The notes under the pieces were generated by a model. It was given only the letters and a program-made list of their open reading frames with translations, was not told the origin of the DNA and made no database searches. A DNA stretch of 64,000 bases from Lactococcus paracarnosus (GTDB lineage: Bacteria > Bacillota > Bacilli > Lactobacillales > Streptococcaceae). Where the stretch lies: the NCBI RefSeq assembly GCF_006770285.1, contig NZ_CP017195.1, positions 310,001-374,000 on the forward strand. Reading direction: 5' to 3'. Shown piece after piece: positions 1,331 through 57,277 of the stretch (positions within the stretch are counted from its first letter, which is position 1; the number at the start of each line of letters is the position of its first letter). The translations under genes were made by a program, and so were the position numbers.

Positions 1331-1339
1331 TGGTATAAT
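1331..1339 (+). promoter_or_regulatory. Extended -10 promoter element of mutL, possibly leaderless
   Basis: TGGTATAAT sits here, with its last base 6 nt before the mutL ATG. RNA polymerase normally starts about 7 nt after the -10 hexamer, which would be the A of the start codon. There is no convincing -35, as is usual for TGn extended promoters. AAGG at 1341-1344 is too close to the ATG to serve as a Shine-Dalgarno site. Confidence 0.55.
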
Positions 1340-1345
1340 AAGGTC

Positions 1346-3304
1346 ATGACAATACAGGAAAAAAAACAGGCTAAAATCATTGAACTGGATGAAAACTTAG
1401 CCAATAAAATTGCCGCTGGTGAAGTGATTGAACGACCTGCTAGTGTTGTAAAAGAGCTGCTGGAAAATGCTATCGATGCAGCTGCGACACAAATTACGGT
1501 CAAAATAGAGGAATCTGGTCTCAAATCGATCGAAATTATTGACAATGGCGAAGGGATTGCGCGTGATGAAGTTGCCTTAGCGCTCAAACGTCATGCGACC
1601 AGTAAGATAAAAGATGTCGATGATCTTTTTCGGATTCGCACACTAGGCTTTCGTGGTGAAGCACTTCCTTCTATTGCAAGCGTCAGTGAGCTAACAATCA
1701 ACACGGCTGTAGCAGATAATGGCGATGAAAGTGGGACTTTGTTGATTGCCAAGGGTGGCGATATCATCCAAAATGATGCTGCACCTAAGCGTGTTGGCAC
1801 ACGTATCAAAGTCGAAAACTTATTTTATAATACACCAGCACGGCTAAAGTACATCAAAAGTCTACAGGCTGAGCTGAGTCATATCACCGATATCATCAAC
1901 CGTTTGAGTTTGGCGCATTCTGAGGTTGCTTTCACCTTGATCAATGATGGACGTGAGATGATGAAAACTGCTGGAACTGGTGATTTACGTCAGGCGATTG
2001 CGGGTGTCTATGGCATCTCCACAGCTAAAAAAATGCTGGCTATTTCAAATTCAGACCTTGATTTTGAAGTCAGTGGTTATGTCAGTTTGCCTGAGTTAAC
2101 GCGGGCGAATCGCAACTATATTACGATTTTACTGAATGGTCGCTATATCAAGAATTTCCTCATTAATCGTGCGATTGTAGATGGGTATGGGTCAAAACTG
2201 ATGGTGGGGCGTTTTCCGCTTGCCATCATTGACATCAAAATAGATCCTTTTTTAGCAGATGTAAATGTGCATCCGACAAAGCAAGAAGTCAGAATTTCCA
2301 AAGAGCGAGAGCTAATGGTACTCATCACACGAGCAATCAGTCAGGCCTTGCAGCCACAAACCTTAATTCCAAATGCCCTCGAGAACTTAAATAAGTCAAC
2401 GTCTACTGCGCCTCCCGCCGATAAAGCGGAACAGACTAGTCTTCCTTTGACGGGAAAACAGCTATATTATGATTCGGAGCGTCAGGACTTTTATGTCCAA
2501 GAAAAAGCAACCGTTGACCTTGTGCCAACGTCACTTTCAGAGCTTTCCGCTATCAAAGATAGGACGACTGTATCTAGTTCAGCAGTTGAAACAATATCTG
2601 AAGCAACCACTGAAGCAATACATGAGGAATCATCCGTAGTTAATGCAGCAATACCCATGACATCTGTAGATGATGAAGTGGGGAATAAAACCTTTCCTGA
2701 ACTAGAATTTCTAGCTCAAATGCACGGGACCTACTTACTTTGCCAATCGCCAGAAGGACTTTATATCGTGGATCAGCACGCGGCGCAAGAGCGTGTCAAA
2801 TATGAGTATTACCGGGAAAAAATCGGACAGGTTAACTATGATCAACAACAACTGTTAGTACCTATCTTAATCAGACTAACCCAGGATGAAATTTGCCTGG
2901 TATTGGATAAGAAAGAGCTGTTAGCAGAAGCGGGCGTTTTTTTAGCCGCTTATGGAGATGACCAGCTCATTTTACGCGAACATCCAATCTGGATGAATGA
3001 CGATGAAATCGAATCGGCTACTTATGAATTAATCGACCTATTATTAGCTGGACGTGATGTATCTGTTAAGAAATATCGGGAAGATCTGGCGATTATGATT
3101 GCTTGTAAAAGTTCGATTAAGGCTAATATGTTTATTGATCCAGCCAGTGCCCGTGATTTATTACAGCAACTCGCTCAATGTAAAAATCCCTATAATTGTC
3201 CACATGGTAGGCCAGCTCTTGTCTCGTTTTCAAATACAGACCTTGAAAAGATGTTTAGGCGGATTCAGCAAACACACAAAGGTGGTTGGCATACACAATT
3301 TTAA
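1346..3304 (+). CDS. mutL: DNA mismatch repair protein MutL
   Basis: MutL couples mismatch recognition by MutS to strand removal. The 652-residue chain has the GHKL ATPase motifs in order: ENAIDA (about residue 40), DNGEGI (about 68), GFRGEAL (about 103) and the [17 protein letters not shown] segment (about 150-170). The C-terminal dimerisation domain follows an acidic, poorly conserved linker (about 345-445) and carries [10 protein letters not shown] and [12 protein letters not shown]. The end has [14 protein letters not shown] and the MFRRIQ tail, so the protein is complete. The ATG at 1346 is the only start codon ahead of the conserved N-terminus. No mutS lies beside it in this window. ruvA follows after 32 bases and probably shares the transcript. 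There is no Shine-Dalgarno sequence. Confidence 0.97.
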
Positions 3305-3918: not shown

Positions 3919-3947
3919 TTGGGCTTATAGCTCAGAGATGAAGGAGA

Positions 3948-3974
3948 AATACGGTATCTAATCGTATTTTTTTT
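3948..3974 (+). terminator. Rho-independent terminator after ruvA
   Basis: AATACG and CGTATT form a short stem around a 9-nt loop, followed by a run of eight T. It closes the mutL-ruvA unit. Confidence 0.65.
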
Positions 3975-4572
3975 ATTAAATCATGTGGGAAATAGTCAGA
4001 TGCTATCAGCAAGATTATTTTACTTGTTTTATAGTTGGTTGAAATCGTTTTTGTTAAACATAATGCTTTTTTGAAGGTATTAAACGTCGTAAATCAAAAT
4101 CAGTTATTTTTCTTTTAAAATGGCCATTAGAAACGACTCCCCATATAATCAAGTCAAAGTGGTTATCTCTGATATGGATAGTGAGATAGAGTTACTCACT
4201 CCTGTACTCATAAGTCGTATAAAAATCCTGGCAGTTTCTTTTTTAATTGACAATGATTTAGACAGCTTCATTAGCTTTGAATAGATCGAGAATTAGTAAT
4301 TGGATGTGTCATAGCAGAAAAACTAAAGATACCAAAAAATAAATCATCCTAAATTCACTGAGGGTATCCTTATTAACCAAAAATGATGCATCCAAGATTG
4401 TTTCATTTTAGCAACGGAAAAATAATTAAATAATTCAATAAAAACAAGAAAGTGAATTAAATGGACGCTATAATGACGTTTAATATAGCATTGCATACAC
4501 TATTGTTTTTATAATCGAAAAGAATTCCTTTCGATTTTAAAAAGTAAATGGGAAATGAATGAAAAATTAGAG

Positions 4573-4618
4573 GTGATGTAGTTTAGATGCGTTACAATAA
4601 GCATCTAAACTACATCAC
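4573..4618. repeat. Perfect 18-bp inverted repeat, 10-nt loop
   Basis: The arm GTGATGTAGTTTAGATGC at 4573-4590 is repeated exactly in reverse complement at 4601-4618 around GTTACAATAA. No T run follows on the + strand. On the - strand it is followed by TCTAATTTTTC, so it could be a weak terminator in that direction. Confidence 0.85.
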
Positions 4619-4732
4619 AAATAGAGATTGTCAGAATATAGGTAGGGGATGTTTCTCGATGAAACAGCTGTACCAAGGATTAAGCTGTAAAGATACCGGT
4701 AGAGAATAGCAATAGAGACGAAATGAGTTTCT

Positions 4733-4779
4733 TATTACTTAATATAATATTGTCTAACAGTTAATTATATTAAGTAATA
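4733..4779. repeat. Perfect 15-bp AT-rich inverted repeat, 17-nt loop
   Basis: The arm TATTACTTAATATAA at 4733-4747 pairs exactly with 4765-4779. It ends about 20 bp upstream of the promoter of the decayed WxL locus, so it may be a regulator site, or the leftover end of a small mobile element. Confidence 0.75.
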
Positions 4780-4801
4780 GTAAAATAATTTAATAAATAA
4801 C

Positions 4802-4830
4802 TTGAACTCAGATTAAAAAAAATGTATAAT
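4802..4830 (+). promoter_or_regulatory. Promoter of the decayed WxL locus
   Basis: TTGAAC, 17 nt, TATAAT, with a TG one base before the -10 hexamer. The layout matches the promoters of the two intact WxL clusters (16253 and 32067). It would give a leader of about 75 nt. Confidence 0.7.
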
Positions 4831-4913
4831 GATACGTAAGATAAGTTTTCAGGCAATTTCATCATAAGCGGTAAGTGTGTTACTTTTGAAACGGTGAGAA
4901 AATGGAGGGTGAA

Positions 4914-5192
4914 ATGAAAAAAATAATAATGATGGTCGTTTACGTCACTTTTATATCAGGGCTTACTCTAACATCACAAACAGTCCTTGCAGAAGGGATT
5001 CAACCTAGAGTGACAGGTCAATTAATTGAACAGACGCCGTCATCAGATGATAACGATCCAGCAAATCCAAGTAATCTACCAGACTCTGGAGAAAAAAAGA
5101 GTAGTGCAGTTATTGAAGGTGTTATTGCACTTGTGCTGTATAGTGGTATAGGCTGTTATTCTAGAAAAAAAGTGGAGGATAAACATGATTAG
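4914..5192 (+). CDS. Small sortase-anchored WxL-cluster protein (LPDSG motif)
   Basis: The ATG at 4914 is used because GGAGGG sits 4 nt upstream; the frame's earlier ATG at 4902 overlaps that site. The 92-residue product has a signal peptide (about residues 1-27, ending near VLAEG), a short extracellular segment and a C-terminal LPDSGEKK motif at about 58, then a hydrophobic stretch and a positive tail. This is the layout of the small LPxTG protein found in WxL surface-complex (csc-type) clusters. The motif has Ser for Thr, which sortase A often tolerates. It overlaps the following WxL gene by 8 bases. Because the next two genes are broken, this is the only intact member of the locus and may no longer matter. 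Confidence 0.75.
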   Translation: MKKIIMMVVYVTFISGLTLTSQTVLAEGIQPRVTGQLIEQTPSSDDNDPANPSNLPDSGEKKSSAVIEGVIALVLYSGIGCYSRKKVEDKHD

Positions 5193-5701
5193 GATAAAAC
5201 ATCTTTCAGGTATCGTGGCTATTTTTATTTCTTTAGGTTGGATTAGTATAACAGCTTATGCAAATACCCCTGAAACGACAGTTACTGGAGAAATCACAGC
5301 TGGTGATTTTTCGATGACGCCGCCAAATGAGGTCAGTTTTAATGCTAGGTTGACTGGTAAAATACAGAAAATAGATTTAGACGTGATTAAAACGACTGTA
5401 ACAGATTATCGTGGTAGTGAAGATGGCTGGCAGATTACTGTAAATTCACCAAATTATAAAAAATATGCTAAGAACTATCAGCTAAATTAACTGATAAAGA
5501 TGAAAAACGTGTATTGAAGCTTGCTGAAAAAGAATTGAGTGATACACCACAAGTTATTTCTGCTCCAAAAATGACTAAGGTAGGAGATAATGGAGACGCG
5601 GCATCTGCTGTATTATCTTATACTGGGATTACTAAAGTTCAAAATATGTGTCAACAATCGAATGGTCTTTAGAATCTACAACAGCATTGCTTGCTGAATA
5701 G
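5185..5701 (+). pseudogene. WxL-domain surface protein, two frameshifts
   Basis: The first frame gives a signal peptide (ending near TAYA), then TVTGEITAGDFSM and the first WxL signature DGWQITVNSP, and stops at 5488-5490. The conserved reading continues one frame over with KLTDKDEKRVLKLAEKE, then shifts again near 5644 to finish with YVSTIEWSLESTTALLAE, which carries the second signature WSL, and stops at 5699-5701. Both breaks are explained by loss of one A in a short A run. Start at 5185 follows GTGGAGG. WxL domains bind peptidoglycan non-covalently. The protein would be about 170 residues if intact, shorter than the WxL proteins at 16327 and 31993. Confidence 0.85.
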
Positions 5702-5722
5702 TTTGACGAACATATTGAAATG

Positions 5723-5745
5723 AGGAGGAGGAAACTCCTCTATTT
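5723..5745 (+). other. Hairpin between the WxL and DUF916 remnants
   Basis: GAGGAG-GAAA-CTCCTC with a short AT stretch after it. It occupies the same place as the terminator-like hairpins found after the WxL genes in the two intact clusters. It also contains a possible ribosome site. Confidence 0.45.
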
Positions 5746-5766
5746 TAATGGAGAATAAACATAAAA

Positions 5767-5959
5767 ATGAAGAAAATTTTACTAAGTCTTATCCTATAAC
5801 AAATCCTTTACAATCAATGGAAAACAAGACAAGTCTATCCGTCAACGATCACGCGTAAAATCACCATGGTTGCGATATGTGGTAAGTGCTTTGGGTATTA
5901 TCTTACTTTTATTAGTCATCTTGATGAAAAAGAAGCACAAAAAGTATGATGAGGGATGA
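5767..5959 (+). pseudogene. DUF916/DUF3324 anchor protein, most of the gene deleted
   Basis: The 5' end reads MKKILLSLIL, the start of a signal peptide, then joins out of frame to a 3' end that reads FTINGKQDKS..., a membrane segment VSALGIILLLLLVILM and a Lys-rich tail KKKHKKYDEG. The tail has the same layout as the C-terminus of the intact 335-residue DUF916/DUF3324 protein at 17214-18221 (FTIKSKEAK..., membrane helix, KKNRKP). Roughly 270 residues are therefore missing from the middle. These proteins are the membrane-anchored partners of WxL proteins, so this locus cannot make its own anchor. Confidence 0.75.
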
Positions 5960-6012
5960 AAATAAACAAAAATCCCCTTAGTGAGTCATTTAAATTGAAG
6001 ATAAAACGCATA

Positions 6013-6038
6013 TGACACATGTTGCATATGTGTTTTGA
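6013..6038. other. Imperfect hairpin downstream of the WxL remnant
   Basis: AACGCATATG and CATATGTGTT pair with one mismatch around a short loop. No long T run follows. It may be a weak terminator of the decayed locus. Confidence 0.3.
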
Positions 6039-6160
6039 GGATTATAGTTGTTAGTCATCACATAGAAAGACGAGAATAGAATGGTTAAAATTAACCTCAT
6101 TCAGACAAATCATAGTCAGATAATATGACAGAGATAACCCTATATAATAAAATAGTTTGA

Positions 6161-6169
6161 TGATATAAT
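6161..6169 (+). promoter_or_regulatory. Extended -10 promoter element of ruvB, possibly leaderless
   Basis: TGATATAAT ends 6 nt before the ruvB ATG, the same spacing as in mutL. A second TATAAT at 6143-6148 could start a transcript about 20 nt upstream, but no Shine-Dalgarno sequence exists between it and the ATG. Confidence 0.5.
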
Positions 6170-6175
6170 AGAGAT

Positions 6176-7195
6176 ATGGAAAATGACAAAATAACATCAG
6201 GGGAGTTGCAAGACTTTGACCGTGAAATAGAAGGAAACCTAGTCGAGAGGACGCTCAGACCCCAATATTTAGCCCAATATATCGGTCAGGATAAAATCAA
6301 GGAACAACTAGATATTTTTATCAAGGCAGCCAAATTACGTGAGGAGTCACTAGACCATGTGCTGCTGTTTGGTCCTCCAGGACTTGGTAAGACAACCATG
6401 GCCTTTGTGATAGCAAATGAACTCGGTGTCAATATCAAACAGACATCTGGTCCAGCCATCGAAAAGGCAGGCGATTTAGTCGCGATTCTGAATGAATTAG
6501 AGGCTGGAGATGTCCTGTTTATAGATGAAATTCATCGACTACCGATGGCAGTTGAAGAGGTGCTATATAGCGCCATGGAAGACTTCTATATTGATATTAT
6601 GATTGGTGGAGGAGATGCTAGTCGCAGTGTTCATCTGGAACTACCACCATTTACCTTGATTGGGGCAACCACTCGAGCTGGTATGCTATCCAATCCATTA
6701 CGTGCACGTTTCGGTATCAATGCCCACATGGCTTATTATGATATTGACGACTTGACAGAAATTGTCACACGAACAGCCGATATTTTTGACGTTGAAATTA
6801 CGGGAGATGGCGCGCATGAAATTGCTCGCAGGAGCCGTGGGACACCGCGTATTGCCAACAGATTACTCAAGCGAGTCCGAGATTTTGCGCAGATTAAAGG
6901 GACAGGTCTTGTCGATGATGAAGTGACACAAAAAGCGCTATTGATGCTAGATGTGGATGCTTCTGGTCTGGATTATGTCGATCAAAAGATCATTAAAACA
7001 ATGATAGAGATGTACCGTGGTGGGCCTGTTGGCTTGGGGACGCTTGCTGTTAATATCTCGGAAGAACGTGAAACTTTAGAGGATATGTATGAACCGTACT
7101 TAATTCAATCAGGCTTCTTGATTCGCACACGTCAAGGGCGCTGTGCAACGGCCAAAGCTTATGCACATTTTGGTTATGAGTACACGGGAGAATAA
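6176..7195 (+). CDS. ruvB: Holliday junction DNA helicase motor RuvB
   Basis: RuvB is the hexameric AAA+ motor that drives branch migration with RuvA. The 339-residue protein has [13 protein letters not shown] near 27, Walker [10 protein letters not shown] near 64, Walker [10 protein letters not shown] near 116, sensor 1 GATTRAG near 163, the arginine finger region LRARFGI near 173, and a C-terminal winged helix with RTRQGR near 320. Nothing is missing. It has no ribosome site: GAG stands only 2 bases before the ATG. It lies 2.25 kb from ruvA, with decayed surface genes between them, so it is probably transcribed alone from the promoter at 6161-6169. Confidence 0.97.
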
Positions 7196-21006: not shown

Positions 21007-24000
21007 TTAAGGTGCCGTTCTTAAATCAAACTCGACATCTGCTGTATATTTTGTGGTGTTTAATCCGCTTCTGTTATGGGAGATTGCTTTAAAGCCAAGC
21101 TCTTTAGCCCAAGATAACTTAGTCAGATTATTCTGCTTAGCGGTCTCACCTGTCACATCGTGAGACGTGACAAGTGTCGCATCAGCACCGAGTTCTGTCG
21201 TTTGCCCGATTGCCTTTGTAAAACTGACAGCCATAGTGGATAGCTTAATCTCTTTACCAGCAGCATCCTTAAATGGACTAGCTGTTGCTGTAATCTCCCA
21301 GTTAACACGATCAGGTTTTGCTGTTTCCCCATCAGGTAAACGCGTCCCTCGATAATCTGTTACTGAAATCGCATAGTCAGCATCTTTTCGATCAATAATT
21401 TGGTTAGATTTTGTCGGTAAGATATTGTCTTTAAAGGAAATATTAGGGACTGATTTCAAACCGAGTGCACCACTATTAATGACAAAGTTATTCGATTTTT
21501 CAACTTTTTGGTCCCCTGCTTGATTCTTGTAAGAGAGTGTGTAGTTACAATTACCACTAGGGATGGCGTATGCCTTTTCCCAGGCAGTCCCTGTTAACGT
21601 AATCTCAAAATACGAACCATATGGTAGAACAGGTAAATTTAATGCATCATTTTTAATGGTTTGCTCATTACTTGCTGTTTGCTTACCAGTCTGATCAAAG
21701 GTTGTGACTGTGACAGTAGGGGATAATGCCCATGCATCTGTCAACAGGCTGATAGTCGATAACTTAACGGCAATAGAGGTGGAGTCTTCTGGTGAATCAG
21801 CAGTATGTTTGACTGTGAGTTTAGCTTGCAATTGGTCACCAATCACAGCAGTCGTCGCACCTGTTTTACCTGAATCAGTACTAAAAGAGATGTTGGTTTC
21901 TAAAATAGCACCACTAGAGATCAACTCACCAACATAAGTTCCTGCTTGTAAGTCACCTTTCCCATAGTTAGCCATGAAATTTTTAGGACTATAGGCCTTA
22001 GACTTGCCATTTTCTCTTACCCAGTTTCCAGTTAATTGATCGCCTTCATTTAATGCGGTAGGTATAGGCAAGTCAGCATCTGTACCCATCGATGTGAACT
22101 TAACACCTAGTGTTAAACTAGCAAGAGGCGTGTTTTTAAATAGTTTTTGCATGGTTGTGACCTTACCTGTATCAAAGCTCGATAAATCGAGTTTTGTAAG
22201 GGAAATACAATCTTGGAACATCCCATCCATATTTGTGACTTGCGAGGTATCATACTGAGATAAATCTAATGTTTTAAGCGATTTACACCCTATGAACATA
22301 CGAGATATACGTGTCGCTTTTGAGGTATCCAAGTTAGTCAGGTTTACAATCTCTGTCAGATTCGATAGATCTGAAAATAGTGCATCTGAATTTTCTGGAG
22401 CTTGGGTCTTCCCAGTAAATATGATCTGTTTAACACTGTTCGCATCTATATTTTGACCATCAGTCCGCTTCCAAGGAGAAGTAGTTGATCCTGCCTCCAG
22501 TGTACCAGAGTTTACGGTTAAGATCCCAGTATCAGGGTCAAATGTCCAAATCGCATCTCCCCACTTATTAGGGTTAACTTCAGCGATATAAGTCCCAGCT
22601 GTTAAGTTATTTTCGCCATAGTTAGCTACGAAATCTTTAGTACTATAGGCGCCAGAGTTACCATCTTTTCGAATCCAATTTCCAGTCGATCTCTCCCAGC
22701 TGTTTAGCGCTTTAGGATCAGGGAGATCCATGCCTTTATGAAGTAGAAACCTATCTCCTAGTGTGAGGCTAGCTAGAGAGTCGCAATTCGTAAAGATCCT
22801 CATTGTTGACAAACCCCAAGTGTCTCTAGGAGGTATAATGAAACTTGATATGTCTAGCTTTTTAAGGCTTATACAGTTTTCGAACATGGCGCCGTATACT
22901 ACCAGATTGGAGGTATCCCAATTTGATAGATCAAGGCTTTCTAGCATGGTGCAGCCTTTAAACATGGAATTCGTACCTACGACATCTGAAGTATCCAATT
23001 TATCTAATCCGACAATTTCCTTTAGGGAGGTCAGGTAAGCAAATAAGTCACTAGAACTTTTCGGTGCTTTAGTTTTACCTGTAAAGATGATTTTCTTGAT
23101 TTGATCCTTATTAATTTTGGCGGTATCATCTCGTTTCCATGGTGAGTATTCTGTTACATCTAGGTTGCCTGGATTGACTGTTAAGACACCTGTGTCTGTA
23201 TCAAATGTATAGGGTGCCTCTCCCCAAAGAAGCGGTTTGGTTTCTGCGATGTAGGTACCTGCTCTTAAGTTATCTTTCCCATAGTTAGTGGTGAAGTCAT
23301 CTACAGTATAAGTAAATGAAGGCCTGCCTTTTTTAAACCACCTGCCAGTCAGATAAATTCCCTCACGTAGCGCTTGTGATTGCGATTGTGACAGGTTCAC
23401 GTCAGTTCCTCCTACGAACCTAAAATAATTACCTAGTGTTAAGCTAGAGAGGGCTGTATCTTTAAACATGTCCTTCATCTTTGGTTCGTATAAGGTACTA
23501 AATCGGGATAGATCTAGGGTTTTAAGTTTCTGACATGCTTTGACTAGTCCGCTCATATCTGTCACCCTTGAAGTTTCGAAATTAGATAGGTCTAACGATT
23601 CAAGACTAGAGCAGTAGAAGAACATATCGACCATCCTTGTTACCTTTTCGGTGTTAAAGCTTGATAAGTCTAATTGTTTTAAATGATAACAATCATAGAA
23701 CATCCCCGTCATGTTCGTCACATCTGACGTGTCGAGATAGGTCAGGTTTTCGAATTCAGTTAAGCTAGTTAGCTTTCTAAATAACTCTGTCGAATCTTCT
23801 GGTGCTAAAACTGGACCTGTGAAGATAATTTTCTTAATCTTTGTCCCATCTATTTTGTCATCATCTGTGCGCTTCCAAGGAGATTCGTTAGACTTAGTTA
23901 ATCGCCCAGATTCAATCGTCAAAGTCCCTGTATTTTTGTCAAATGTCCAAGGTGCATCTCCCCAGAGACGAGGCGCTTTAATTTCTGCGACATAGGTGCC

Positions 24001-27000
24001 AGCCGTCAAGTCCTTTGTCCCATATTTTTGCATGAAACCAGCCGGACTTTGGGGATAAGAACCACGATTCTCTTTGATCCATTTTCCGGTTAATTCCTCT
24101 CCAGCGTTTCGCGCAGTTGGCTTAGGCAGGTTAGCGCTATTTTCTCCGACAAATCTAAACGCATCTCCTAGTGTTAAACTGGAAAGGATTGTGTCATTAA
24201 ACATGCCTGCCATCTTTTTCACGTTTTCGGTGTCAAATCCTGATAGGTCTAGCGTTTTAAGTTTCTTACACGATTGGAACAGTTCCGTCATATCTGTCAT
24301 ATTTTTAGTATTGAATTTAGATAGATCTAGTGATTCGAGACTAGTACAGAAGAAGAACATCTTTATAATACTTGTTACTTTTGAGGTGTTAAAGTTTGAT
24401 AAGTCTAATTGCTTTAAGTTATAACAATCATAGAACATCTCGTCCATGTTGATTACCTCAGACGTATCAAGATAGGTCAAGTTTTCGAATTCAGTTAGGT
24501 TATTTAGAGCCTTAAATAACTCGCTACAGTTGGTAGGTGCTTTAGTCGCGCCTGTAAAGTTAATTTTCTTAATCTTATCCGCGTCAACCTTTCGATTGCC
24601 AGTAAGCTTCCAAGGTGCGTTTTCAGGTTTATCTAGTGTCCCTGAGTTGATTGTTAAAATACCTGTATTTGAATCAAAATCCCAAGGTGCATCTCCCCAA
24701 GTAAGTGACATAATTTCTGCGACATAGGTGCCAGCTTTTAAGTCACCTTTCCCATAGTTCGTCATGAATTTTTCTGTATCATAAGCAGCTGATTGATTGT
24801 CTTTTTTAATCCAGTTACCAGTCAGATATTTCCCTTCACGTTGCAGATCTGATGTGGAGAATAGCGATTGTGGTTTTGAGAGTTTACTGTCTGTCTTGAC
24901 AAATGTAAAGCTCTCCCCTAGTGTTAAACTCACAAGGGGTACATTTTCAAATAGTTTATTCATTTCTGTAACAGCTGAGGTATCAAAAGTTGATAAGTCT
25001 AAGCTTTTAAATGATGTACAGTCTCTAAACATCCCCCTCATATCTATTACTTTTTTAGTGTTAAATTTAGATAGGTCTAATGTCGTAAGACTAGTACAGT
25101 TACGAAACATATCACGGGTATCCGTTACTTTTTCAGTATTAAAGTTTGATAAATCTAATGTTACGAGACTAGAACAGTCACGAAACATATTAAGCATCGT
25201 CGTTATATTTGATGTATCTAGATTAGTCAAACCTACTATTTCAGCTAAGCTGCTTAGCGACTTAAATAGCTCTTGAGAATCCTCAGGTGCTTTAGTCACA
25301 CCTGTAAAGCTAATTTTCTTAATCTTATCCGCATCAATCTTTCGATTATCAGTCAACTTCCAAGGTGCATTTTCAGTCTTATCCAAGCTCCCAGGACTAA
25401 TAATTAAGACACCTGTATCAATATCAAATGTATAGGGTGCATCTCCCCAAAGCATGGGATTAATTTCTGCAACATAGGTGCCAGCTTTTAAGTCACCTTT
25501 CCCATAGTTATCCATGAATTTTTGTGTATCATAAGCAGCTGACTGATTGTCTTTTTTAATCCAGTTACCAGTCAGATATTTCCCCTCACGTTGCAGTTCA
25601 GATTTGGAGAGTAAAGATCGTGGTTTTGATAGACTGATGTCTGTATTGATAAATTTAAAGTTGTCACCTAGTGTTAAACTAATAAGTGGTACATTTTCAA
25701 ATAGTTTATTCATCTGTGTAACAGCTGAGGTATCAAAGCTTGATAGATCTAAGCTTTTAAGTGATGTACAGCCTCTAAAGATCCCCCTCATATCTTTTAC
25801 AATTTTTGTGTTAAATTTAGATAGGTCTAATGACGTGAGACTAGTACAGTCAAGAAACATATCAAGCATAGAAGTCACTTCTGACGTATCAAGATTGGTC
25901 AATCCTTTAATTTGAGTTAAGCTAGTTAGCTGCTTAAATAAATCTTTAGCATCTTCAGGTGCTAAAACTGGACCTGTGAGAATAATCTTCTTAATCTTTG
26001 TGCCATCTATTTTTTTATCATCATCCCGTTTCCAAGGTGAGGTATCCGACTTGAATAATCGCCCAGATTCAATCGTCAAAGTCCCTGTATTCTTGTCAAA
26101 TGTCCAGGGTGCATCTCCCCAGAGAAGCGGGGCTTCAATTTCTGCGACATAGGTGCCAGCCGTTAACTCATTTTTACCGTATTCTCTCATGAAACCGCCC
26201 GGACTTTGGGGATAAGAACCGCGATTTGTTTTGATCCATTTTCCGGTTAATTTATCTCCAGCGTTTAGTGCAGTTGGCTTAGGTAGTTTACTATCATCTC
26301 CGATGAATCTAAACTCGTCCCCTAGTGTTAAGCTAGAGAGGACTGTGTTGTAAAACATGTCTGTCATTTTTGGCTTGCTTAAGGTATTAAATCCAGATAA
26401 ATCTAGGGTTTTAAGTTTCTGACACTCTTTGAATAGTCCCGTCATATCAGTCATCTTTTTAGTATCGAATTTCGATAGGTCTAGCGATTCGAGATTAACA
26501 CAGTAGAAGAACATATCGACAATACTTGTTACTTTTGAGGTGTTAAAGTTTGATAAGTCTAATTTTTTTAAGTCATAACAATCAAAAAACATCTCGTCCA
26601 TGTTGGTCACATCAGACGTATCTAGATTAGTCAATCCTTCAATTTCAGTTAATGTTTTTAGCGCCTTAAATAATTCTTTAGAATTTACAGGTGCTTTAGT
26701 CACGCCTGTAAAGTTAATTTTCTTAATCTTTTTCGCGTCAACCTTTCGGTTGTCAGTCAACTTCCAAGGGGCATTTTCAGGTTTATCTAGTGTCCCTGAG
26801 TTAATCGTTAAGATACCTGTATCGCTATCAAATGCCCAAGGTGCATCTCCCCAAGTCAGTGCCTTAGTTTCTGCGACGTAGGTGCCAGCTTTTAAATCAC
26901 CTTTGCCATAGTTCTCCATGAATTTATCTGTATCATAAGCAGCTGACTGATTATCTTTTTTAATCCAGTTACCAGTCAGGTATTTCCCTTCACGTTGCAG

Positions 27001-30000
27001 ATCAGATGTGGAGAGTAAGGATTTTGGTTTTGATAGGCTACTATTTTTATTGACAAATCTAAAGTTGTCACCTAGTGTTAAACTCACAAGTGGTACATTT
27101 TCAAACAGTTTATCCAATGTCTTACCAAAACGTGGTGTATCTATTCCTGAGGTATCAAAACTTGACAGATCTAAGCTTTTAAGCGATGTACAGCCACTAA
27201 ACACTCCCCTCATATCTAAGACATTTTTAGTATTGAATTTAGATAGGTCTAATGTCGAGAGACTAGTAGCGTCACAAAACATATTAAGCATAGAAGTCAC
27301 ATCAGACGTGTCAAGATAGGTCAAGTTCTCGAATTCAGTTAAGCTAGTTAGCTTTCTAAATAAATCTGTCGCGTTTACAGGTGCCTTAGTTGTACCTGTG
27401 AAGACGATTTTCTTAATCTTTTCCGCATCAATTTTTCGATTATCAGTCAGCTTCCAAGGGGCATTTTCAGTTTTATCTAGGGTTCCCTGGCTAATGGTTA
27501 AGACACCTGTATCGCTATCAAATGCATATGGCGCATCTCCCCAGAGAAGCGCTTTAGTTTCTGCAACATAGGTGCCAGCTTTTAAGTCACCTTTCCCATA
27601 GTTTGTCATGAATTTTTGTGTATCATAAGGAGCTGACTGATTGTCCTTTTTAATCCAGTTACCAGTCAGATAGTTCCCCTCACGCTTCAGATCTCCTGGC
27701 GTTAGCGCAGCTGGATTAGATAGGTGACTATCATCTTTGATGAATCTAAACTCATTCCCTAAGGTTAAACTAGAGAGGACTGTGTCGTTAAACATGTCTG
27801 TCATCTTTGGCTTGCTTAGGGTATTAAAGCTTGATAAATCTAGGGTTTTAAGTCCTGTACATGTTTTGAACAGTCCTGTCATATCGGTCATCTTTTTAGT
27901 ATCGAATTTAGATAGGTCTAGCGATTTGAGGCTAACACAGTAGAAGAACATATCGACAATGCTTGTTACATTTGAAGTGTTGAAGTTTGATAAGTCTAAT
28001 TGCTTTAAGTCATAACAATCATAGAACATCTTGTCCATGTTCGTCACCTCTGACGTGTCGAGATAGGTCAAGTTTTCGAATTCAGTTAAGCTAGTTAGCC
28101 TCCTAAATAACTCTGTCGAATCTTCAGGTGCTAAAACCGGCCCTGTGAAAATAATCTTCTTAATCTTTGTGCCATCTATTTTTTTATCATCATCCCGTTT
28201 CCAAGGTGATGTATCCGACTTGACTAACCGACCAGATTCAATCGTCAAAGTCCCTGTATTCTTGTCAAATGTCCAGGGTGCATCTCCCCAAAGAAGTGGC
28301 GCTTCAATTTCTGCGACATAGGTGCCAGCCGTCAACTCATTTTTACCGTAATATTTCATGAAACCGCCCGGACTTTGAGGATAAGAACCGCGATTCTTTT
28401 TGATCCATTTTCCGGTTAATTTATCTCCAGCATTTAGTGCAGCTGGTACAGGTAGCTTACTATCATCTCCGACAAATCTAAACGCATCTCCTAGTGTCAA
28501 ACTCACAAGTGGGACATTTTCAAACAGTTGATTCATTTTTTTGACAGCTGAGGTATTAAAACTTGACAAATCTAAGCTTTTAAGCGATTTACAGCCACTA
28601 AACACTCCTCTCATATCTGAGACATTTTTAGTATTGAATTTAGATAGGTCTAATGCCGTGAGACTAGTAGCGTCACAAAACATATTAAGCATAGAAGTCA
28701 CATCAGACGTGTCAAGATAGGTCAAGTTCTCGAATTCAGTTAAGCTAGTTAGCTTCCTAAATAAATCTGTCGCGTTTACAGGTGCCTTAGTTGTACCTGT
28801 GAAGACGATTTTCTTAATCTTTTCCGCATCAATCTTTCTATTACCAGTCAGCTTCCAAGGTGCGTTTTCAGGTTTATCTAGTGTCCCAGAGTTGATGGTT
28901 AAGATACCCGTATCAGCATCAAAAGTCCAGGGTGCATCTCCCCAAGTCAGTGCCTTAGTTTCTGCGACATAGGTGCCAGCTTTTAAATCACCTTTGCCAT
29001 AGTTCTCCATGAATTTATCTGTATCATAAGCAGCTGACTGATTATCTTTTTTAATCCAGTTACCAGTCAGATATCTTCCGTCTTGTAGCAATTCAGATGT
29101 GGAGAATAACGATTTTGGTTTTGATAGGCTACTATTTTTATTGACAAATTTAAAATTGTCACCTAGTGTTAAACTCACAAGTGGGACATTTTCAAACAGT
29201 TTATCCAATGTCTTACCAAAACGTGGTGTATCTATTCCTGAGGTATCAAAACTTGACAGATCTAAGCTTTTAAGCGATGTACAGCCACTAAACACTCCCC
29301 TCATATCTAAGACATTTTTAGTATTGAATTTAGATAGGTCTAATGCCGTGAGACTAGTAGCGTCACAAAACATATTAAGCATAGACGTCACACCTGATGT
29401 ATCCAGATTAGTCAAGCCTTCGATTTCAGTTAAGTTTTTTAACGCCCTAAATAACTCTTCAGAATTTTTAGGTGCCTTAGTTGTACCTGTGAAGCTGATT
29501 TTCTTAATCTTTTCGGCGTCAATCTTGCGTTCATCAGTGCGTTTCCAAGGTGCGCTATCAACTTGAGCTAGTGTCCCTGAGTTGATGGTTAAGATACCTG
29601 TATTTGCATCAAATGACCAGGATGCATCACCCCAGAGTAAGGATTTAGTTTCTGCGACGTAGGTGCCAGCTTTTAAGTCACCTTTGCCATAGTTCTCCAT
29701 GAATTTATCTGTATCATAAGCAGCTGACTGATTATCTTTTTTAATCCAGTTACCAGTCAGGTATTTCCCTTCACGTTGCAGTTCAGATGTAGAGAATAAC
29801 GATTTTGGTTTTGATAGGCTACTATTTTTATTGACAAATTTAAAATTGTCACCTAGTGTTAAACTCACAAGTGGTACATTTTCAAACAGTTTATCCAGGG
29901 TTGTGATACCTGATTCTGATGTATCAAAAGTTGATAAATCTAAGCTCTTAAGCGATGTACAGCCTCTAAACGTCCCCCTCATATCTGCTACATTTTTAGT

Positions 30001-30756
30001 GTTGAATTTAGATAGGTCTACTGTCAGGAGACTCGTACAATCACGAAACATGTCACGGATATCCGTGACTTTTTCAGCAGTAAAGTTTGATAGATCTAAT
30101 GTTACGAGACTAGAGCAGTCACGAAACATATTGAGCATCGTCGTCACATCTGATGTATCCAGATTAGTTAAGCCTTCGATTTCAGTTAAGTTGCTTAGCT
30201 CTCTAAATAAATCTTCAGACTTTTCAGGTGCCTTAGTCGCACCTGTAAGGCTAATTCTCTTAATCTTTTTCGCGTCAATCTTTCGTTCATCAGTGCGTTT
30301 CCAAGGTGCGCTACCAACTTGGCCTAGTGTCCCTGAGTTGATGGTTAAGCTACCTGTATTTGCATCAAATGACCAGGATGCATTCCCCCAGGTAAGGCCG
30401 TCATTTTTTAAGTTTTCAGTGTTTCCTGCTCTCGCTTTTTTGTCTGATGGCGTGCTCGTTTCTTTTTTGGGTGTTTCAGTAGCTTCTGGCTCAGTTTCTT
30501 GTTTCTCTGACTTTTTCTGATTAGTTTTATCTTGCTCAGTAGTTACGGACTCAGTTTCATCTTTATCAGTCTTATCTTCGTCAGTAGGCACTGGTTTAGT
30601 TTCTTTATCTTGTGTGCTTTTAGTTTCCTCGTTTGATGCAGTGGTGATAGCAGGAGTATCTTGGGTAATAGCAACTACCTGTGCAATACTTGTGAGTGGT
30701 GTTCCCATCGACAACAGTGTCAGAGAAAATAAAGTGAATAATTTATTTTTTTTCAT
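21007..30756 (-). CDS. Giant 3249-residue DUF285 repeat protein with WxL-like C-terminus
   Basis: Paralogue of the 699-residue protein at 18511, enlarged by repetition. It has a signal peptide (1-30), a charged linker of Thr, Glu and Lys runs (about 31-118), then twelve tandem modules (about 119-2940, average near 235 residues). Each module runs: WGDAPWTFD--TG-LTI cap; PWKR-D--KID--KIKKI-FTG; two to four DUF285 repeats (LTNLDTSDVT-M--MF); SLTLGD-F-F; and a closing LTGNWIKKDNQSAAYDT...AGTYVAE. The C-terminus (about 2940-3249) ends with NWEITATASPF and TADVEFDLRTAP, a divergent WxL domain. There is no sorting motif or membrane helix, so wall attachment must be non-covalent. The frame is open over 9.75 kb, so it is probably expressed. 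It overlaps the preceding small gene by 14 bases. Confidence 0.9.
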   Translation of the reverse strand: MKKNKLFTLFSLTLLSMGTPLTSIAQVVAITQDTPAITTASNEETKSTQDKETKPVPTDEDKTDKDETESVTTEQDKTNQKKSEKQETEPEATETPKKETSTPSDKKARAGNTENLKNDGLTWGNASWSFDANTGSLTINSGTLGQVGSAPWKRTDERKIDAKKIKRISLTGATKAPEKSEDLFRELSNLTEIEGLTNLDTSDVTTMLNMFRDCSSLVTLDLSNFTAEKVTDIRDMFRDCTSLLTVDLSKFNTKNVADMRGTFRGCTSLKSLDLSTFDTSESGITTLDKLFENVPLVSLTLGDNFKFVNKNSSLSKPKSLFSTSELQREGKYLTGNWIKKDNQSAAYDTDKFMENYGKGDLKAGTYVAETKSLLWGDASWSFDANTGILTINSGTLAQVDSAPWKRTDERKIDAEKIKKISFTGTTKAPKNSEELFRALKNLTEIEGLTNLDTSGVTSMLNMFCDATSLTALDLSKFNTKNVLDMRGVFSGCTSLKSLDLSSFDTSGIDTPRFGKTLDKLFENVPLVSLTLGDNFKFVNKNSSLSKPKSLFSTSELLQDGRYLTGNWIKKDNQSAAYDTDKFMENYGKGDLKAGTYVAETKALTWGDAPWTFDADTGILTINSGTLDKPENAPWKLTGNRKIDAEKIKKIVFTGTTKAPVNATDLFRKLTSLTEFENLTYLDTSDVTSMLNMFCDATSLTALDLSKFNTKNVSDMRGVFSGCKSLKSLDLSSFNTSAVKKMNQLFENVPLVSLTLGDAFRFVGDDSKLPVPAALNAGDKLTGKWIKKNRGSYPQSPGGFMKYYGKNELTAGTYVAEIEAPLLWGDAPWTFDKNTGTLTIESGRLVKSDTSPWKRDDDKKIDGTKIKKIIFTGPVLAPEDSTELFRRLTSLTEFENLTYLDTSEVTNMDKMFYDCYDLKQLDLSNFNTSNVTSIVDMFFYCVSLKSLDLSKFDTKKMTDMTGLFKTCTGLKTLDLSSFNTLSKPKMTDMFNDTVLSSLTLGNEFRFIKDDSHLSNPAALTPGDLKREGNYLTGNWIKKDNQSAPYDTQKFMTNYGKGDLKAGTYVAETKALLWGDAPYAFDSDTGVLTISQGTLDKTENAPWKLTDNRKIDAEKIKKIVFTGTTKAPVNATDLFRKLTSLTEFENLTYLDTSDVTSMLNMFCDATSLSTLDLSKFNTKNVLDMRGVFSGCTSLKSLDLSSFDTSGIDTPRFGKTLDKLFENVPLVSLTLGDNFRFVNKNSSLSKPKSLLSTSDLQREGKYLTGNWIKKDNQSAAYDTDKFMENYGKGDLKAGTYVAETKALTWGDAPWAFDSDTGILTINSGTLDKPENAPWKLTDNRKVDAKKIKKINFTGVTKAPVNSKELFKALKTLTEIEGLTNLDTSDVTNMDEMFFDCYDLKKLDLSNFNTSKVTSIVDMFFYCVNLESLDLSKFDTKKMTDMTGLFKECQKLKTLDLSGFNTLSKPKMTDMFYNTVLSSLTLGDEFRFIGDDSKLPKPTALNAGDKLTGKWIKTNRGSYPQSPGGFMREYGKNELTAGTYVAEIEAPLLWGDAPWTFDKNTGTLTIESGRLFKSDTSPWKRDDDKKIDGTKIKKIILTGPVLAPEDAKDLFKQLTSLTQIKGLTNLDTSEVTSMLDMFLDCTSLTSLDLSKFNTKIVKDMRGIFRGCTSLKSLDLSSFDTSAVTQMNKLFENVPLISLTLGDNFKFINTDISLSKPRSLLSKSELQREGKYLTGNWIKKDNQSAAYDTQKFMDNYGKGDLKAGTYVAEINPMLWGDAPYTFDIDTGVLIISPGSLDKTENAPWKLTDNRKIDADKIKKISFTGVTKAPEDSQELFKSLSSLAEIVGLTNLDTSNITTMLNMFRDCSSLVTLDLSNFNTEKVTDTRDMFRNCTSLTTLDLSKFNTKKVIDMRGMFRDCTSFKSLDLSTFDTSAVTEMNKLFENVPLVSLTLGESFTFVKTDSKLSKPQSLFSTSDLQREGKYLTGNWIKKDNQSAAYDTEKFMTNYGKGDLKAGTYVAEIMSLTWGDAPWDFDSNTGILTINSGTLDKPENAPWKLTGNRKVDADKIKKINFTGATKAPTNCSELFKALNNLTEFENLTYLDTSEVINMDEMFYDCYNLKQLDLSNFNTSKVTSIIKMFFFCTSLESLDLSKFNTKNMTDMTELFQSCKKLKTLDLSGFDTENVKKMAGMFNDTILSSLTLGDAFRFVGENSANLPKPTARNAGEELTGKWIKENRGSYPQSPAGFMQKYGTKDLTAGTYVAEIKAPRLWGDAPWTFDKNTGTLTIESGRLTKSNESPWKRTDDDKIDGTKIKKIIFTGPVLAPEDSTELFRKLTSLTEFENLTYLDTSDVTNMTGMFYDCYHLKQLDLSSFNTEKVTRMVDMFFYCSSLESLDLSNFETSRVTDMSGLVKACQKLKTLDLSRFSTLYEPKMKDMFKDTALSSLTLGNYFRFVGGTDVNLSQSQSQALREGIYLTGRWFKKGRPSFTYTVDDFTTNYGKDNLRAGTYIAETKPLLWGEAPYTFDTDTGVLTVNPGNLDVTEYSPWKRDDTAKINKDQIKKIIFTGKTKAPKSSSDLFAYLTSLKEIVGLDKLDTSDVVGTNSMFKGCTMLESLDLSNWDTSNLVVYGAMFENCISLKKLDISSFIIPPRDTWGLSTMRIFTNCDSLASLTLGDRFLLHKGMDLPDPKALNSWERSTGNWIRKDGNSGAYSTKDFVANYGENNLTAGTYIAEVNPNKWGDAIWTFDPDTGILTVNSGTLEAGSTTSPWKRTDGQNIDANSVKQIIFTGKTQAPENSDALFSDLSNLTEIVNLTNLDTSKATRISRMFIGCKSLKTLDLSQYDTSQVTNMDGMFQDCISLTKLDLSSFDTGKVTTMQKLFKNTPLASLTLGVKFTSMGTDADLPIPTALNEGDQLTGNWVRENGKSKAYSPKNFMANYGKGDLQAGTYVGELISSGAILETNISFSTDSGKTGATTAVIGDQLQAKLTVKHTADSPEDSTSIAVKLSTISLLTDAWALSPTVTVTTFDQTGKQTASNEQTIKNDALNLPVLPYGSYFEITLTGTAWEKAYAIPSGNCNYTLSYKNQAGDQKVEKSNNFVINSGALGLKSVPNISFKDNILPTKSNQIIDRKDADYAISVTDYRGTRLPDGETAKPDRVNWEITATASPFKDAAGKEIKLSTMAVSFTKAIGQTTELGADATLVTSHDVTGETAKQNNLTKLSWAKELGFKAISHNRSGLNTTKYTADVEFDLRTAP
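21935..30400 (-). repeat. Array of twelve tandem gene-internal modules, about 0.7 kb each
   Basis: The unit boundary AGTYVAE...WGDAPW occurs eleven times inside the gene, with a twelfth closing AGTYVGE before the C-terminal domain. Units fall into subtypes that recur in a mixed order: some share the SLDTSGIDTPRFGKTLDKLF variant, some the KKNRGSYPQSPGGFM variant, some the DNQSAAYDT variant. This suggests duplication followed by recombination between units. The last two modules before the C-terminus are the most divergent, and the final one is closest to the single module of the paralogue in cluster B. Confidence 0.85.
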
Positions 30757-51548: not shown

Positions 51549-52256
51549 ATGCGAATTGATGATGTACTAGTTAGCTATACGATGACAAAAAAGTCAGAAG
51601 TCAAAAAAATAATCAAACAAAACCGTGTGCTGGTTGATGGCATCCCTATCAATTTGATCAACCACCAAGTTGACAGTAACCTCAATGAGGTCAAGTTAGA
51701 TGGTAAGCTGGTCCAATTTCCAGCCCATCGTTATCTGATGCTAAATAAGGTCATCAGGACCTTGTCCGCTAATCAGGATGCCAGTTTACCAGTGGTGTTT
51801 GATGCCTTATCATCAGATATCAATCGTGAGGGGCTTTACATTATCGGGCGATTAGATTTTTTATCTGAGGGTCTAATTTTGATAACAGATAATGGCAAGT
51901 TGGGGCGCAAGCTATTGGAGCCTGAGGCACATGTCGAGAAGGTTTATGACGTTGTGACAAAGGAGCCATTATCAGAAACAGCTGTTGCTAAATTTGCCTC
52001 TGGTCTGGTCATCGATGGTACTGTTAAGTTAGCACCTGCAAAATTAGTCGTGACATCTGAACATGCAGCGAGTGTCACGATCAGTGAAGGCAAAAATCGT
52101 CAGGTTCGCAAGATGTTTTTAAGTATAGGCGTTTTAGTCACCAAACTGGTCAGAAGGCAAATCGGACCCATCAAGTTAGATGAACAGCTAGCATCTGGAG
52201 ATTATCGCAGTCTTACTAAATCTGAAATTAAGGCACTATCGCGCTATTTTAACTAG
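51549..52256 (+). CDS. RsuA-family rRNA pseudouridine synthase
   Basis: A 235-residue enzyme that makes pseudouridine in small-subunit rRNA. The N-terminal S4 RNA-binding domain (about 1-58: MRIDDVLVSYTMTKKSEVKKIIKQNRVLVDG-like) precedes the catalytic domain. The catalytic motif is GRLDFLSEGLILIT (about 101, catalytic Asp) and the C-terminal motif is EGKNRQVRKMF (about 180). Two places deviate from the family: MLNKVIRTLSA where most members have MLNKPKG-like sequence, and FLSEGL where DTEGL is usual. The catalytic Asp is kept, so it is probably active. It converges with recX, and the two stop codons overlap by 4 bases. Confidence 0.88.
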   Translation: MRIDDVLVSYTMTKKSEVKKIIKQNRVLVDGIPINLINHQVDSNLNEVKLDGKLVQFPAHRYLMLNKVIRTLSANQDASLPVVFDALSSDINREGLYIIGRLDFLSEGLILITDNGKLGRKLLEPEAHVEKVYDVVTKEPLSETAVAKFASGLVIDGTVKLAPAKLVVTSEHAASVTISEGKNRQVRKMFLSIGVLVTKLVRRQIGPIKLDEQLASGDYRSLTKSEIKALSRYFN

Positions 52257-53047
52257 AAGTCTATCTCTCGGAGTTCTCGGTTAATTACGTCGAAATCAAA
52301 TCCTTTACGAGCGAGGGCGTTACTAACACGCTGTTTAAGATCATAGCCATCGTAGGTTCTGCTATATTTTCTCAGGACTTTTTCCAGTTCTTTTTGGAGG
52401 AGTTCAGCTTCATTTTCTTGGTCAGCTTCTAACTCGAGGTTAACCAGTGCGATTTTGCTGATATCATAGGAAAAGCCCTTGCTCGTTAAGTGGGTCGAGA
52501 TCTTCATTTTTAATGCTTTTAATGGTAGGCGACTATACTTAGTCATGACCAATTTTTCTGCCAGATGGGTGGCAACCTCAACCTGGGTATCAAAATCAAA
52601 CAGCTCGTCTAGTTTATCTATCACCAGGGCTTTATCGATGCCCTTTTCAGTCAACTTTTGTCTGATTTGGTAAGGACCTGAAGATTTTCCTAACACTTTG
52701 CCGCGGATGAAGGATGCGGCATAGGCGTCGTCATCTATAAAATGTGAAGCGGTTAATTCATCGATGATTTTAGCAATTTGAAAGTTAGGGATATCATGAT
52801 CAAGGAGGTAGGTAACCACCTCTTTTTTTGTACGCTGTTTAAATGAAATATAGTAAAGTCCTAGATTTTTTCCCCTAGAAAAATCAGAAAATGCAATGAT
52901 TTTATCGATTTCAGGTGGGTCAAAGATAGCACCTTTTGATAGGAAAAAACGGACGATGGTATCTTCAGTGACATAGATAGTCTGGTCGTTGTCAAACACA
53001 ACCTTATATAGGCGTTTCTTTTTTTCGAGTGAGATAATTTTAGGCAT
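52253..53047 (-). CDS. recX: Regulatory protein RecX
   Basis: RecX modulates RecA filaments. The 264-residue protein is full length for the group. It has an N-terminal segment VVFDNDQTIYVTEDTIVRFFL and then three-helix RecX repeats: GLYYISFKQRTKKEVVTYLLDH (about 73), FIDDDAYAASFIRGKVLGKSSGPYQIRQKLTEKGI-like (about 110), and a third near the C-terminus with LRKYSRTYDGYDLKQRVSNALARKGF. No ribosome site stands before the ATG. A TATAAT lies 5 nt upstream, so it may be translated from a leaderless mRNA. Confidence 0.93.
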   Translation of the reverse strand: MPKIISLEKKKRLYKVVFDNDQTIYVTEDTIVRFFLSKGAIFDPPEIDKIIAFSDFSRGKNLGLYYISFKQRTKKEVVTYLLDHDIPNFQIAKIIDELTASHFIDDDAYAASFIRGKVLGKSSGPYQIRQKLTEKGIDKALVIDKLDELFDFDTQVEVATHLAEKLVMTKYSRLPLKALKMKISTHLTSKGFSYDISKIALVNLELEADQENEAELLQKELEKVLRKYSRTYDGYDLKQRVSNALARKGFDFDVINRELREIDF

Positions 53048-55924: not shown

Positions 55925-55933
55925 TGGTAAAAT
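55925..55933 (+). promoter_or_regulatory. Extended -10 element of the RlmD-type gene, possibly leaderless
   Basis: TGGTAAAAT ends 6 nt before the ATG, the same spacing as in mutL and ruvB. No Shine-Dalgarno sequence is present. Confidence 0.5.
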
Positions 55934-55939
55934 GAGTAT

Positions 55940-57277
55940 ATGACTCTCAAAATTAAGCAAAAAATTCCACTTAAAATAAAAAAAATAGGTATCAATGGTG
56001 AAGGTGTCGGGAACTTTAAAGGGATGACAGTTTTTGTCGCTGGTGCACTTAAAGGTGAAGAGGTTTACGCCGAAATTATCAAAAGTGAACCAAATTATGC
56101 GACAGCAAAAGTCCTTAAATTAAATAAGCAGTCCCCACATCGTGTGGTCCCTGTATGTGATATTTATAAGCAATGTGGTGGGTGTCAAATCATGCATTTG
56201 GCTTATCCACAACAATTAGTGTTCAAGCAAGACTTGTTAAGGCAGGCTTTGCAGAAATTCAAGCCAGCGGGCTATGAAGCCTATGAGGTTCGCAAGACGA
56301 TAGGGATGAAAAATCCGCAACATTATCGGGCGAAAATGCAATTCCAGACCCGTTTTCTAGGCGAAAAAGTCAGAGCAGGTCTTTTTGCTGAGAGTTCTCA
56401 TCGGCTTGTTGAAATCAAAAATTGTTTCGTACAGGATGAGACGACACAAGCAATTATTAATGAGATAACTGAACTCTTGACCTTTCATCGGATTCCGATT
56501 TACAATGAGCGCCAGTTTGATGGTGTCCGGACAGTGATGGTGCGGCGAGCACATAAGACAGGACAGGTTCAGATCATTTTCATTTCCTCTGCACCTGTTG
56601 AGCTGACACGTACGATTACGAGTTTAACTGAGAAATTTCCAGAGATTAGAACGATCGCCCTAAATATAAACGCCAAGAAAACATCAGAAATTTATGGTGG
56701 TGAAACGAAGATTTTATGGGGAGAGCGTGCGATTTTAGAAGGCGTACTTGACTATAGTTTTGAACTGAGTCCGCGTGCTTTTTATCAGTTAAATCCAGAA
56801 CAGACAAATGTCCTTTATCGTGAAGCGGTCAAAGCCATGGACGCAGGGCCAGATGATGATTTGATCGATGCCTATTCTGGTACAGGCACGATTGGTCGTG
56901 CTTTCTTAGGAAAAGTGCGCAGTATTCGTGGCATGGATGTGATTGCAGAATCGATAGATGACGCAAGAATTAATGTGCCTGACGGGATCTATGAGGTGGG
57001 AACAGCAGAGACAGTTATCCCTAAATGGGTAGCTGATGGCTTTGAAGCAACAGCGCTGATTGTTGATCCACCACGGACTGGCTTAGATGATAAGTTATTG
57101 GATACGATCGTTGCGACTAGGCCTGAGAAAATGGTCTATGTCTCTTGTAATGTGTCAACTTTGGCGCGAGACTTGGTCAAGCTAGCGGCTGTCTATGATA
57201 TTAAGTACATCCAGTCAGTGGATATGTTCCCGCATACTGCTAGAACAGAAGCAGTTGTCAAGTTGGTGCGCAAATGA
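55940..57277 (+). CDS. rlmD: 23S rRNA (uracil-5-)-methyltransferase, RlmD/TrmA family
   Basis: A 445-residue SAM-dependent enzyme that makes 5-methyluridine in 23S rRNA. It has an N-terminal TRAM domain (about 1-60, [22 protein letters not shown]-like), the four-Cys iron-sulfur site starting [11 protein letters not shown] (about 73-83, with a further Cys in the domain at about 161), the SAM site [13 protein letters not shown] (about 312) and the catalytic Cys in [13 protein letters not shown] (about 398). In Gram-positives one enzyme (RlmCD) can serve two sites, so the exact position methylated is open. Start at 55940 is fixed by the TRAM domain. It overlaps the GNAT gene by 4 bases. Confidence 0.92.

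Follow-up and report, generated by a model that had tools for sequence, protein, structure and literature searches.

Four predicted leaderless genes of Lactococcus paracarnosus belong to a known, functionally mixed class with -10 elements set just before the start codon

Leaderless genes of Streptococcaceae have been described from several directions. In Streptococcus pneumoniae, a leaderless class amounting to 9% of operons has been mapped (PMC6212727), and pbp2A of strain D39V is translated efficiently without a ribosome-binding site (Slager et al. 2018, PMC6212727). For Lactococcus cremoris, from a related genus, about 13% of mRNAs are given as leaderless, with a bimodal distribution of leader lengths, either below 5 nucleotides (nt) or about 40 nt, with none between 4 and 14 nt (PMC10986495). 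A computational survey of 2011 noted a strong TG peak for the leaderless genes of Lactococcus, the -35 element probably being missing, and placed the Pribnow box of the “TA-led” genes of the Lactococcus-Streptococcus clade about 12 bp upstream of the start codon (PMC3160421). Here we consider four genes, mutL, ruvB, recX, and one coding for an RlmD-type 23S rRNA (uracil-C5)-methyltransferase (hereafter rlmD), in a 64-kb window of the Lactococcus paracarnosus genome (bases 310001-374000; positions below are those of the window). Whereas the evidence for the S. pneumoniae D39V operons and the L. cremoris class is experimental, these four are predicted from sequence. The main text on D39V (PMC6212727) does not name mutL, ruvB, or recX, the passages of the 2011 survey at hand hold no gene-level treatment of the four, and the literature titles, abstracts, and passages that we consulted offered nothing useful on a leaderless mutL, recX, or ruvB in streptococci. 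We propose that the four genes are very probably leaderless, being expressed from extended -10 promoters that lack a -35 element, with a likely role in basal constitutive expression rather than in a dedicated stress response. They are a correct recognition of an already known class that is common to dozens of unrelated genes.

The original prediction had placed -10 elements 6 nt before the ATG of mutL, ruvB, and rlmD and 5 nt before that of recX, without a Shine-Dalgarno (SD) site at any of them; both the coordinates (Table 1) and, on inspection of the sequence, the absence of the SD site upstream of all four genes (4/4) were confirmed. The spacing of 5 to 7 nt between the -10 hexamer and the start that defines the class is thus present throughout, and a TGn precedes the hexamer of mutL, ruvB, and rlmD, with ACG in its place at recX. 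No consensus -35/-10 pair ending at the -10 of mutL or ruvB was found, and the four predicted mRNAs are structurally unremarkable at their 5' ends. The products are named from NCBIfam as MutL, RuvB, RecX, and RlmD-type, the last scoring 390 bits against TIGR00479 (RlmD), for which the cutoff is 184.

The whole 2.27 Mb genome was scanned once for each spacing, with the reversed pattern as the control. TGNTATAAT-N6-ATG has 50 matches against 4 in the control, and the corresponding figures are 9 and 0 for N5, 22 and 1 for N7, and 8 and 2 for N11; the matches hence peak sharply at spacing 6, and spacing 7 forms a shoulder. Open reading frames (ORFs) of at least 60 amino acids are opened by 43 of the 50 N6 matches, and an SD-like motif is found in none of these 43, which contradicts the notion that the same spacing might be equally frequent before SD-led genes. 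Elsewhere an SD is present in about 74 to 76% of genes, as estimated with a rough gene caller in sampled stretches chosen between the known N6 matches and with the ruvB entry left out since the caller misplaced its start; this is closer to three quarters than to the “nearly all” of the original prediction. The TG itself matters, because TG-less TATAAT-N6-ATG sites open an ORF of such length in only 12 of 34 cases. The two consensus cases of the window are about what is expected for 2.8% of the genome, without local clustering. A second RlmD paralogue of the same genome (C1:1057501) likewise has the leaderless TGNTATAAT-N6-ATG layout.

When diverged genus members are compared, neither the TG nor the -10 hexamer varies upstream of mutL (seven members), ruvB, and rlmD, apart from several ruvB copies whose third hexamer base is C rather than T, while recX keeps CG and TATAAT. 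The -35 zone is weakly conserved for all four genes; a short T/A-rich run immediately upstream of the -10 is partly retained for recX and rlmD, and nothing is conserved in the DNA upstream of mutL and ruvB beyond the -10 and the adjacent T-rich bases. The spacing remains at 5 to 7 nt in relatives while the position of the start codon shifts at the N-termini of MutL and RuvB. Because the TG and -10 are fixed, the upstream DNA has diverged, and mutL and ruvB have no -35/-10 pair, this picture is the signature of extended -10 promoters without a -35 element.

The predicted layout also reaches beyond the genus, albeit to different extents for the individual genes. Outside the genus but within the family, 21 of the 23 genomes examined have the recX layout, two of these, both from genus g2, with an odd spacing of 4 or 9. 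That of ruvB is found in all 16 genomes examined of genus g5, many of which appear closely related, so that the counts are not independent, as well as in one genome of g50 and one of g2 (9-nt spacer); it was not seen in the examined genomes of g3, g4, and g6. Of these genera, g5 is probably Streptococcus and g50 is probably Lactococcus in the narrow sense. For mutL, the leaderless layout occurs solely in this genus: in the other genera and in one member of the genus (G011), mutL starts near the usual place, in most cases with an SD, and the G011 copy is SD-led with a GTG there. Leaderless MutL carries about eight additional N-terminal residues (window 1346-1372) relative to the usual start. 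We take mutL to be an apparent switch of initiation mode inside one genus. At the level of the order, TGNTATAAT-N6-ATG is enriched in this genus and g5, with 15 to 32 matches per genome against 0 to 2 in the controls, and is close to background in most other families, a distribution that agrees with the 2011 survey, which reports leaderless genes of Lactobacillales from the Lactococcus-Streptococcus and Oenococcus-Leuconostoc clades (PMC3160421).

A divergent arrangement of recX and rlmD, with only 36 to 38 bp between their ATGs, is present in four genus members and one g5 genome, and within this gap the two -10 elements stand back to back, about 12 to 13 bp apart. The gap is a putative minimal bidirectional leaderless promoter; such tight packing would be feasible only with both genes leaderless and neither in need of a -35 element. 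In the genome of the window, recX and rlmD are separated from each other.

Taking the observed layout, the spacing peak, the exclusion of the SD, the conservation, and the clade distribution together, the leaderless mRNAs of the original prediction are well supported, and they agree with the mapped 5' ends of related species (PMC6212727, PMC10986495). The actual 5' ends, the use of 70S ribosomes, and a low-to-moderate constitutive expression are what we infer from these observations. RNA polymerase would initiate on the A of the ATG or at most one or two bases away from it, giving an mRNA that begins with 5'-AUG and has neither a leader nor an SD, and an initiator-charged ribosome (70S or 30S) would then bind the 5'-terminal AUG directly. 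This is probably one instance of a mode of initiation used across the Streptococcaceae for housekeeping genes with low-to-moderate expression that stand first in their transcription unit, its likeliest role being constitutive basal expression with no dedicated stress response.

The four genes all act in DNA or RNA upkeep, and a shared control, for instance under stress, had been suggested. Genome-wide, the functional theme leaves a weak statistical echo: DNA-repair/recombination and RNA-modification/ribosome-maturation genes make up 13 of the 43 leaderless genes against 6 to 7 of 60 SD-led first genes (Fisher p 0.01-0.02; 0.03-0.05 without mutL and ruvB), in a comparison that is small, with a classification that was not blind and two sets annotated with different libraries (Pfam for the 60 SD-led genes). 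The 13 comprise RecG, MutL, RuvB, RecQ, a DnaQ-type exonuclease, RlmB, and the RlmD paralogue, together with RlmH, TruA, a TrmN-like enzyme, TsaE, RimM, and CshA. Outside this group are, among others, PlsX, AcpS, MurE, RpiA, Udk, CoaE, Tmk, ArgR, BirA, EcfA, LspA, and two Cof phosphatases, such that the class covers lipid, cell-wall, nucleotide, sugar, and regulator genes. Upkeep functions are hence about threefold enriched and yet a minority, where a functional regulon would consist mainly of them, and the low-expression housekeeping nature of the genes may account for the excess.

The excess could, in principle, reflect a translational switch shared by genome- and RNA-maintenance genes, whose leaderless mRNAs would be favored together once stress alters ribosomes or initiation factors, and leaderless translation is reported to increase upon oxidative stress in Escherichia coli (PMC9031893). 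We consider this improbable. The E. coli MazF/kasugamycin model of stress ribosomes, which would favor leaderless mRNAs, was not reproduced by other laboratories (PMC6561025, PMC9031893). There is no sign of such a system here; about 70% of the leaderless class has other or unknown functions; and mutL is SD-led in G011 and not leaderless in the genomes examined outside the genus, other genera translating it with an SD. The authors of the model reportedly dispute the failed reproduction in a published reply (PMC6561028). Further, we find no common operator, because conservation upstream of mutL and ruvB is limited to the -10 and the adjacent T-rich bases. With dozens of members of many functions, the class leaves stress control unsupported. 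One related possibility, to which we give little credence, is that selection in this family has kept genes for genome maintenance and RNA modification leaderless, in which case a change in initiator tRNA, initiation factor IF3, or free 70S ribosomes would alter the amounts of repair and rRNA/tRNA-modification enzymes as a group; if true, the inclusion of ribosome-modifying enzymes would close a feedback loop.

Several points weigh against leaderless expression of the four genes. The pairwise identity among diverged genus members, 0.91 to 1.00 for the -10 and TG against 0.25 to 0.41 for the -35 zone and distal upstream DNA, is for the -10 partly built in, as the sequences were registered on TANNAT, although the TG columns are free of that bias. 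At recX, the TG is lacking and the spacing is 5. Upstream of ruvB, a second -10-like TATAAT (6145-6150), about 26 nt from the ATG, is a possible further promoter that could yield a short SD-less leader. This last element would fit an alternative in which the -10 at N6 arose by chance or serves as a secondary promoter and the main transcript comes from further upstream, with an SD-less leader or with coupling to the upstream gene. That alternative appears very unlikely, given the genome-wide N6 peak with its SD exclusion and the lack of any other conserved promoter or leader in the upstream DNA.

The proposed starts had been taken as fixed by conserved N-termini, which holds for recX and rlmD, whose proteins align from the first residues, and does not hold for MutL and RuvB, whose family profiles begin at residues 9 and 21 of the predicted proteins. 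The mutL start is nonetheless fixed, because its ATG is the sole in-frame start codon (ATG/GTG/TTG) between the preceding stop and the conserved region. That start codons are misassigned and a downstream, SD-preceded start is in use is scarcely credible even though the MutL and RuvB profiles start 8 and 20 residues past the proposed starts, since mutL offers no alternative, the proposed ruvB start is the sole ATG candidate, the only other candidate there, a TTG at +30 that touches the purine-rich stretch, is missing in several relatives, and recX and rlmD align from their first residues.

Table 1. Promoter elements and predicted leaderless genes, in window coordinates
Feature	Position	Strand	Remarks
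mutL extended -10 TGGTATAAT	1331-1339	+	spacer AAGGTC, ATG at 1346; no -35 match
mutL, predicted leaderless	1346..3304	+	ATG 6 nt past the -10; precedes the usual MutL start by about 8 codons
ruvB extended -10 TGATATAAT	6161-6169	+	spacer AGAGAT, ATG at 6176; no -35 match
ruvB, predicted leaderless	6176..7195	+	
recX -10 TATAAT	53058-53053	-	preceded by ACG, not TGN; spacer AAAGT (5 nt), ATG at 53047
recX, predicted leaderless	52253..53047	-	
RlmD-type gene extended -10 TGGTAAAAT	55925-55933	+	spacer GAGTAT, ATG at 55940
RlmD-type 23S rRNA (uracil-C5)-methyltransferase gene, predicted leaderless	55940..57277	+	

Some leaderless -10 boxes are adjoined by a repeat of up to about 340 bp, which we found upstream of the leaderless plsX, cvpA, cshA, and a GNAT gene in the genome of the window, with 74 to 88% identity. 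The same repeat lies upstream of plsX and a Cof phosphatase gene in Lactococcus piscium DSM 6634, a close relative that contains an exact copy of a 28-base repeat sequence of the window genome and shares 93.6% identity with it over a 1.5 kb gene region. The conserved right part of the repeat stops a few bases short of TGNTATAAT and contributes a -35 element, TTGCGG, with a spacer of 18 nt. Between the window species and L. piscium DSM 6634, the Cof gene is alike from exactly TGTTATAAT onward and unrelated upstream, which implies that the -10 belongs to the gene and that the upstream difference arose either by gain or loss of the repeat ahead of the gene or by an exchange of the upstream DNA. 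One possibility is that this is a mobile repeat abutting promoters or a recombination hot spot; no RNA family covers it upstream of plsX, cvpA, or cshA.

As to the surroundings of the four genes, the interval between ruvA and ruvB spans about 2.2 kb (window 3919-6160) and contains a short signal-peptide-like ORF (4902-5192) and apparently broken reading frames, and the distance from mutL to ruvB is much shorter in some genus members. On the minus strand lies an ORF of 3249 codons (21007-30756), and an Rfam scan of the 64-kb window returned a single tRNA and no other family.

The new details are the eight-codon N-terminal shift of MutL, the 36- to 38-bp bidirectional recX-rlmD promoter predicted above, and the repeat of about 340 bp at leaderless -10 boxes. 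For the group as a whole, sequence goes far in identifying lactococcal leaderless genes by itself, through the TGNTATAAT-N6 peak, the absent SD, and a -10 kept amid drifting upstream DNA. The layout also helps to set gene starts, as with the roughly eight extra residues on leaderless MutL. Finally, recX and ruvB as conserved cases, together with the modest surplus of genes for repair and RNA modification, furnish a short, testable list on which a coordinated role of leaderless initiation may be assessed.
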